Origin: Corallium rubrum | Lineage: Eukaryota; Cnidaria; Anthozoa; Scleralcyonacea; Coralliidae | Direction of reading: 5' to 3' | Length of the DNA stretch: 64,000 nucleotides | Assembly: GCA_964035015.1 (NCBI GenBank) | Contig: OZ036013.1 | Span: 4,778,501 to 4,842,500 of the forward strand | In this document: piece by piece, positions 27,318-46,787 of the stretch | Numbering within the stretch: position 1 is the first letter of the stretch | Layout of the letters: the number at the start of each line of letters is the position of its first letter | Translations under genes and position numbers: made by a program | Notes under the pieces: generated by a model | Seen by the model: only the letters and a program-made list of their open reading frames with translations | Told to the model about the DNA's origin: nothing | The model's database searches: none

Positions 27318-27450
27318 ATGAGGAAGCTTATGTCCGTTCTGCTAACATTTCTAATGGATTTCGTCCTGTTAACTGGCGTCCAGTGTTCGACCTTCGACGC
27401 AAAGTATCAATCCTCCACTCACTTCGACCACGATAATAACTTCAGTAAAG
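27318..27450 (+). CDS. Candidate alternative first exon of gene B (signal peptide)
   Basis: ATG at 27318 opens MRKLMSVLLTFLMDFVLLTG and then VQCSTFDAKYQ, a clear signal peptide with a plausible cleavage after VQC. The exon ends AGTAAAG/GTAAAT in phase 1, the phase required by gene B exon 35131. It lies about 3 kb upstream of the other candidate first exon (30477). It could be an alternative promoter for B or a relic of another tandem copy whose remaining exons were lost. Confidence 0.6.

Positions 27451-46787: not shown

Follow-up and report, generated by a model that had tools for sequence, protein, structure and literature searches.

UNC5 proteins are usually taken as receptors of a fixed Ig-Ig-TSP-TSP layout. 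In UNC5A-D, two N-terminal Ig-type domains and two TSP1 repeats are joined through one transmembrane (TM) segment to a cytoplasmic ZU5-UPA-death domain (DD) unit, and the related UNC5CL is a membrane-anchored ZU5-UPA-DD protein that lacks an ectodomain and with it Ig and EGF modules. A death-fold domain behind ZU5-UPA is also found in PIDD, CARD8 and NLRP1, which cleave themselves; according to PMC3210808, PIDD has LRRs and each of its ZU5 domains is followed by a cut at HF/S, and the cut in CARD8 and NLRP1 is at SF/S. NLRP1 and CARD8 are cytosolic sensors (PMC7794386), and pro-inflammatory signalling by UNC5CL is the subject of a title cited in PMC10464613.

Related modules have been reported elsewhere: the ZU5 proteins of sponges have undergone a lineage-specific expansion (PMC3482391), cnidarian NLRs can contain ZU5 (PMC8260672), and TRADD-N domains are found fused to a UPA-ZU5 module (PMC8195603). 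The available sections of these three papers do not describe an Ig-EGF-ZU5-UPA-DD architecture, and no receptor of this kind was described in the titles and abstract openings covered by a literature search, a result that does not prove that none is in print. Here we describe three UNC5-like genes with EGF modules in a 64-kb stretch of a coral genome (C49:4778501-4842500 of a 474-Mb, 312-contig assembly; hereafter the window).

Three tandem UNC5-like genes

The window contains three tandem UNC5-like paralogues, A, B and C, all on the + strand and with a common exon order and common intron phases. Gene B is the most complete, and consists of 12 exons (30477-46787) that join into an open frame of 903 aa with no internal stop and with AG/GT at all internal borders. 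We placed its splice sites manually, using three-frame displays and an Ig-exon scan, and then tested them by joining the exons. The chain opens with a first exon encoding a signal peptide (30477..30591, +, phase 0-1), followed by five phase 1-1 exons on the same strand that encode an Ig1-like domain (35131..35448), Ig2 (37845..38144), a complete six-cysteine EGF (EGF1, 38458..38571), a truncated calcium-binding EGF (cbEGF) with four cysteines (EGF2, 39418..39510) and the TM segment (40442..40552). The inner half comprises a cytoplasmic linker (41911..42229, phase 1-2), ZU5a (42621..42904, phase 2-1), a ZU5/UPA boundary exon (ZU5b, 43695..43960, phase 1-0), two UPA exons (44607..44750 and 45654..45836, both phase 0-0) and the last exon, which carries the DD and the stop codon (46323..46787). 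The in-frame chain of Ig-like, Ig, EGF, truncated cbEGF, TM, ZU5, UPA and DD proposed in the first-pass annotation, with compatible phases throughout, is thus recovered. Its proposed start at 27318 stands less firmly: the exon at 27318..27450 (+) encodes a good signal peptide and ends in a phase-1 donor, and is possibly an alternative first exon of gene B, or unrelated to it. We prefer 30477 because of a weak, by-eye likeness to the first exon of gene C.

A Pfam search of the spliced product bore out the domain content, with matches to ZU5 (7e-27), EGF_CA (4e-10, in two stretches), I-set (9e-9, in Ig2) and UPA (2.6e-8), and a borderline match to Death (1.2e-4; 22.5 bits against a cut-off of 22.6, that is, 0.1 bit under). 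When compared to the PDB by phmmer, gene B had UNC5B (3g5b) as its top match (8e-30, query 421-830), extending across ZU5, UPA and DD; further matches covered single domains, namely titin Ig, ZO-1 and ankyrin ZU5, and Notch EGF chains. The genes resemble UNC5A-D in having two N-terminal Ig-type positions, one TM segment and ZU5-UPA-DD in the same order, with 3g5b as the best match. They differ in that one or two EGF modules (one of them truncated) stand where UNC5A-D have two TSP1 repeats, in that the ZU5/UPA boundary reads HF[S/T] and not QLG, and in occurring as three tandem copies. They share an anchored ZU5-UPA-DD with UNC5CL, but unlike it carry Ig and EGF modules. With PIDD, CARD8 and NLRP1 they share a ZU5-UPA unit that precedes a death-fold domain, and their HFT (A and B) or HFS (C) aligns with the site that reads HF/S in PIDD and SF/S in CARD8 and NLRP1; unlike these, they are predicted membrane receptors, and whereas PIDD, CARD8 and NLRP1 self-cleave, the cut in the coral genes is a prediction from the motif.

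Gene C, also on the + strand, begins with a signal-peptide exon (50661..50844, phase 0-1), followed by phase 1-1 exons for Ig1-like (51794..52147), Ig2 (53637..53930; I-set, 8e-11), a complete six-cysteine EGF (55344..55457) and TM (59899..60003); a second EGF exon was not found. The linker (60204..60336, phase 1-2), ZU5 (61318..61604, phase 2-1; Pfam 4e-26), boundary exon with HFS (61900..62165, phase 1-0) and UPA part 1 (63305..63451, phase 0-0; Pfam UPA at 17.2 bits, under the cut-off of 27) complete a frame that is open over 628 codons as far as the window reaches, and UPA part 2 and the DD would fall past the window end. The downstream flank of gene C contains exons of a sodium:dicarboxylate symporter (SDF; L012-L013), likewise on the + strand.

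The Ig1 and Ig2 exons of gene A lie just upstream of the window, and its signal-peptide exon, sought upstream, was not found. The remaining exons, all on the + strand, encode a truncated calcium-binding-type EGF with four cysteines (5284..5400, phase 1-1), TM (7741..7851, phase 1-1), linker (8163..8334, phase 1-2), ZU5 (9391..9677, phase 2-1; 4e-23), the ZU5/UPA boundary with HFT (10472..10737, phase 1-0), UPA part 1 (11749..11895, phase 0-0; 1e-8), UPA part 2 (13973..14130, end approximate) and a DD exon ending in a stop codon (24163..24564; Death, 6e-9). ZU5, UPA and Death were all above the Pfam cut-off. The two halves of UPA part 2 read as UPA in different frames only, so that either the assembly is in error here or the gene is damaged. 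A DIRS-like retroelement (18570-22290, - strand) lies in the last intron of this gene, with RVT_1 at 2e-14, a tyrosine-recombinase-like frame at 1e-4 (under cut-off) and a long frame with no Pfam match. The window also contains a minisatellite at 16687-18405, built of 66- or 33-base units (23.5 or 50.3 copies, depending on the period), and many long tandem repeats of 2-5-base units.

Comparing fragments of the window with each other retrieved the ZU5a, ZU5b and UPA1 exons three times, and the Ig2, full EGF, short EGF and DD exons twice each. For every exon common to two or three of the genes the intron phases are identical. The Ig2, EGF, ZU5, UPA1 and DD exons were located by similarity; the agreement of the Ig1 exons in A, B and C, and of the TM and linker exons in A and C, is not independent, since these were located by scans that required those phases. 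In ZU5a, the three paralogue pairs differ by pN of 0.32-0.35 and pS of about 0.74, the silent change being near saturation, and silent change also exceeds replacement change between the paralogues in Ig2 (the blocks compared were those other than gene C EGF1 and the gene A death domain). The lower pN than pS in ZU5a fits constraint on the protein. The chain is therefore more than a chance arrangement: genes A and C repeat its order and phases, and in shared exons silent change exceeds replacement change.

These observations bear on two other explanations of the locus. The first is that two adjacent genes, one encoding an Ig-EGF protein and the other a TM-ZU5-UPA-DD protein, were wrongly joined, which could be entertained given that the chain is a prediction from genomic sequence and that the EGF-to-TM intron of gene C measures 4.4 kb. 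We consider this very unlikely, as the same order with compatible phases recurs in all three genes, and as in the gene models the ectodomain exons encode no membrane anchor and close with phase-1 donors, while the TM exons open with phase-1 acceptors. The second is a decaying or non-functional duplicate cluster, to which the two-frame UPA part 2 and the retroelement in gene A could point; the open frames of B (903 codons) and C (628, as far as seen), together with the excess of silent over replacement change in ZU5a and Ig2, make this equally improbable. Both were set aside, on the recurrent order and phases, the open frames and the excess of silent change.

The HF[S/T] site at the ZU5/UPA boundary

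Alignment of the ZU5-UPA parts of A, B and C yielded 54 invariant columns of 236, among them His138-Phe139. This HF dipeptide is followed by Thr in A and B and by Ser in C. A profile made from the three genes matched UNC5B 3g5b at 8e-28, and placed HF[S/T] on the UNC5B residues Gln-Leu-Gly (QLG). Each gene model contains the motif a single time, and the chance of its falling at a named site is about 2e-4. Counting along the UNC5B letters gives C-7-C-7-L, such that the aligned leucine is Leu677, the position at which HFT falls in gene B; this fits the Cys663-Cys670-Leu677 numbering in PMC3210808, where Cys663 and Cys670 form a disulphide. The corresponding C-7-C-7-F spacing is kept in gene B; gene C retains the first cysteine only, and gene A the second only.

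In the same paper, CARD8 is reported to be cut at Phe296/Ser297, with Phe296 equivalent to UNC5B Leu677, and serine, threonine or cysteine are given as the nucleophiles in self-cleavage chemistry (PMC3210808). The coral genome also contains one PIDD-like gene, in which two ZU5 stretches are combined with a Death domain. Its two sites read NHFS and THFT, and across the five sequences (A, B, C and both of these stretches) no dipeptide other than HF is invariant. A histidine is required for self-cleavage in CARD8 (His270) and NLRP1 (His1186), according to PMC8081665. When the interval between PHC and HF[S/T] was inspected by eye, without alignment to CARD8 or NLRP1, no histidine was present in B or C and one in A; in the PIDD-like gene, likewise by eye, there was none in the first stretch and one in the second.

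These sites also bear on a further explanation, namely that A, B and C are plain UNC5-type guidance receptors whose ligand is netrin or some other molecule. Their EGF modules would then be mere spacers where UNC5 has TSP1, and HF[S/T] would have a structural part and stay uncut. The entire cytoplasmic half aligns with UNC5B, two of the three genes have Thr at the place of the nucleophile, and B and C have no histidine matching CARD8 His270 by eye, all of which would suit such receptors. On the other hand, HF is retained within the 54 of 236 invariant columns and is also what the PIDD-like gene has at its two sites, whereas UNC5B has QLG. We regard guidance receptors of this kind as possible, but on the unlikely side. 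By strict UNC5 membership the genes fall short on TSP1; they are UNC5-like inside and possibly PIDD-like at the boundary. The presence of HF[S/T] at this boundary goes beyond the first-pass annotation, as does the result that no TSP1-type UNC5 was detected in the genome.

The ectodomain and the genome-wide census

Each of the three genes has an Ig1 exon with a common CxC. In gene B, the Ig-like domain of the first-pass annotation corresponds to the exon at 35131-35448, but searches by sequence and by fold did not confirm an Ig domain: it matched no Pfam family, phmmer and profile searches of the PDB gave no match, and for the gene C exon an AlphaFold model (from a two-row alignment) reached a mean pLDDT of 63.8 and yielded 628 Foldseek matches, none at E <= 0.001. 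We refer to it as Ig-like in view of its position, its cysteines and the likeness among A, B and C. Ig2 is an I-set domain by Pfam in B and C, and is similar in A.

The EGF content, all on phase 1-1 exons, differs by paralogue, with the short form in A, both forms in B and the full form in C. Whereas the full EGF has six cysteines, the short one begins with the DIDEC of a calcium-binding EGF and has four cysteines only, in A as in B, in agreement with the truncation noted previously. A search of the introns between the EGF and TM exons of the three genes gave no convincing candidate for an exon supplying the missing C5-C6 part, and no full EGF was found between the Ig2 and TM exons of gene A. 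Such differences in EGF content are as gain or loss through phase-1 introns would produce, in keeping with the shuffling by this route that had been proposed from the phase-1 ectodomain exons; a replacement of TSP1 repeats by EGF modules in the coral lineage, the other part of that proposal, is hypothetical.

No TSP_1 match was found in three-frame scans of the + strand over 1-9960, 27320-37310, 37300-46990 and 52160-62100, and TSP1-like motifs, sought on both strands over the full length of the window, gave nothing; 9961-27319, 46991-52159 and 62101-64000 were covered by this motif scan and, for TSP_1, by the exons given singly to Pfam. The two TSP1 repeats of the UNC5 layout are thus absent from the scanned stretches, with EGF exons at their place. 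A hidden TSP1 exon was set aside on the basis of these scans.

A genome-wide search with PF00791 (ZU5; 35 of 35 candidates scored) gave 28 matches, of which the top ones are the three window genes (6e-25 to 2e-20). The others include the PIDD-like gene and two exons each from a ZO-1-like and an ankyrin-like gene, both of which were identified by their residues rather than by Pfam, and among the 20 remaining matches four distinct places were read (L007/L024, which are one place, L008, L023 and L025). These are single-exon ZU5 sequences, spread over several contigs, that look like a group apart and are probably a lineage-specific expansion.

Searching with PF00090 (TSP_1) gave at least 150 matches (150 of 309 candidates scored). 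Within this scored set, no TSP_1 match lies within 1.8 Mb of any of the 28 ZU5 matches, and 18 of the 28 have none on their contig. The Ig1-Ig2 part of gene C retrieved six matches in the genome, five in the cluster and a weak one on C20 (E 0.003); it missed the Ig1 of gene B, pointing to limited sensitivity for Ig1. Within the scored candidates and this sensitivity, a TSP1-type UNC5 was not detected in the genome. UPA as a whole-genome probe returned nothing and missed the window genes as well, probably because introns split the domain, and is uninformative. A tblastn comparison with viral contigs showed no relative.

We further searched for netrin candidates, which bear on the guidance-receptor explanation. 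Laminin_N had 13 matches in the genome, three of them single-exon and full-length and of a size that we take to be that of netrins, which would favour guidance receptors. However, of the three NTR matches the nearest lies more than 500 kb from a Laminin_N match, so that a netrin gene is not established.

A separate observation concerns contig C129. It has COX1 matches, 10 of 11 in all, the best one without an in-frame stop and with TGA read as stop, and 6 of the 19 MutS_V matches, whose open frames reach 1009 aa. Since mitochondrial genomes that carry MutS are the mark of Octocorallia, we take the coral to be an octocoral. The MutS matches recur at steps of about 19 kb on both strands and some COX1 matches are broken, as if mitochondrial copies had been assembled end to end, or as if these were partly nuclear copies.

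A putative ligand-gated receptor family

In each gene, phase-1 exons for an Ig1-like domain, an I-set-type Ig2 and one or two EGF modules are joined to TM and ZU5-UPA; A and B were also seen to have a death domain. We consider it probable that A, B and C are an octocoral tandem array of diverged UNC5-like, single-pass Ig-EGF death-domain receptors, possibly self-cleaving, that may act as a ligand-gated switch. Such receptors would be displayed on the cell surface, where the ectodomain may bind a ligand or a neighbouring cell, and the inner half may rest in a closed ZU5-UPA-DD state like that of the UNC5B structure. The motif suggests that the chain might nick itself constitutively after the Phe of HF[S/T], as in PIDD and in CARD8/NLRP1, a speculative step after which the UPA-DD piece would stay held non-covalently and could be released under ligand control. 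Released UPA-DD may then recruit death-domain adaptors, and the receptor would serve as a ligand-gated death or inflammatory switch rather than as a steering receptor alone.

Thr instead of Ser after HF in A and B, and the lack, by eye, of a matching His in B and C, would argue against self-cleavage. Against the model as a whole stand its derivation from genomic DNA, the unconfirmed Ig1, the two-frame UPA part 2 and missing first exon of gene A, and, in gene C, a UPA score under cut-off and no UPA part 2 or DD within the window. Dependence signalling, in which death is triggered without ligand and which is stated for UNC5B in PMC8358048, would fit the coral receptors even with no nick.

A more far-reaching version of the ligand-gated switch, which we hold to be doubtful, would place these genes, by their mechanism, next to PIDD and NLRP1 as membrane-spanning relatives. 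They would be contact receptors of Ig-EGF type that cut themselves at HF[S/T] and release UPA-DD when the outer half is engaged or lost, forming an octocoral array diversified by tandem copying and by phase-1 EGF gain and loss, and serving as a recognition or cell-fate system in the place of TSP1-type UNC5. A role in self/non-self discrimination, adhesion or recognition between colonies is speculative.

If the only UNC5-type receptors detected in this genome use EGF modules, the death-signalling inner half would be older, or more portable, than the netrin-guidance outer half. If HF[S/T] is cut, these surface receptors would be tied to the self-cleavage mechanism of PIDD and NLRP1, and would offer a view of how the uncut state of vertebrate UNC5 arose.
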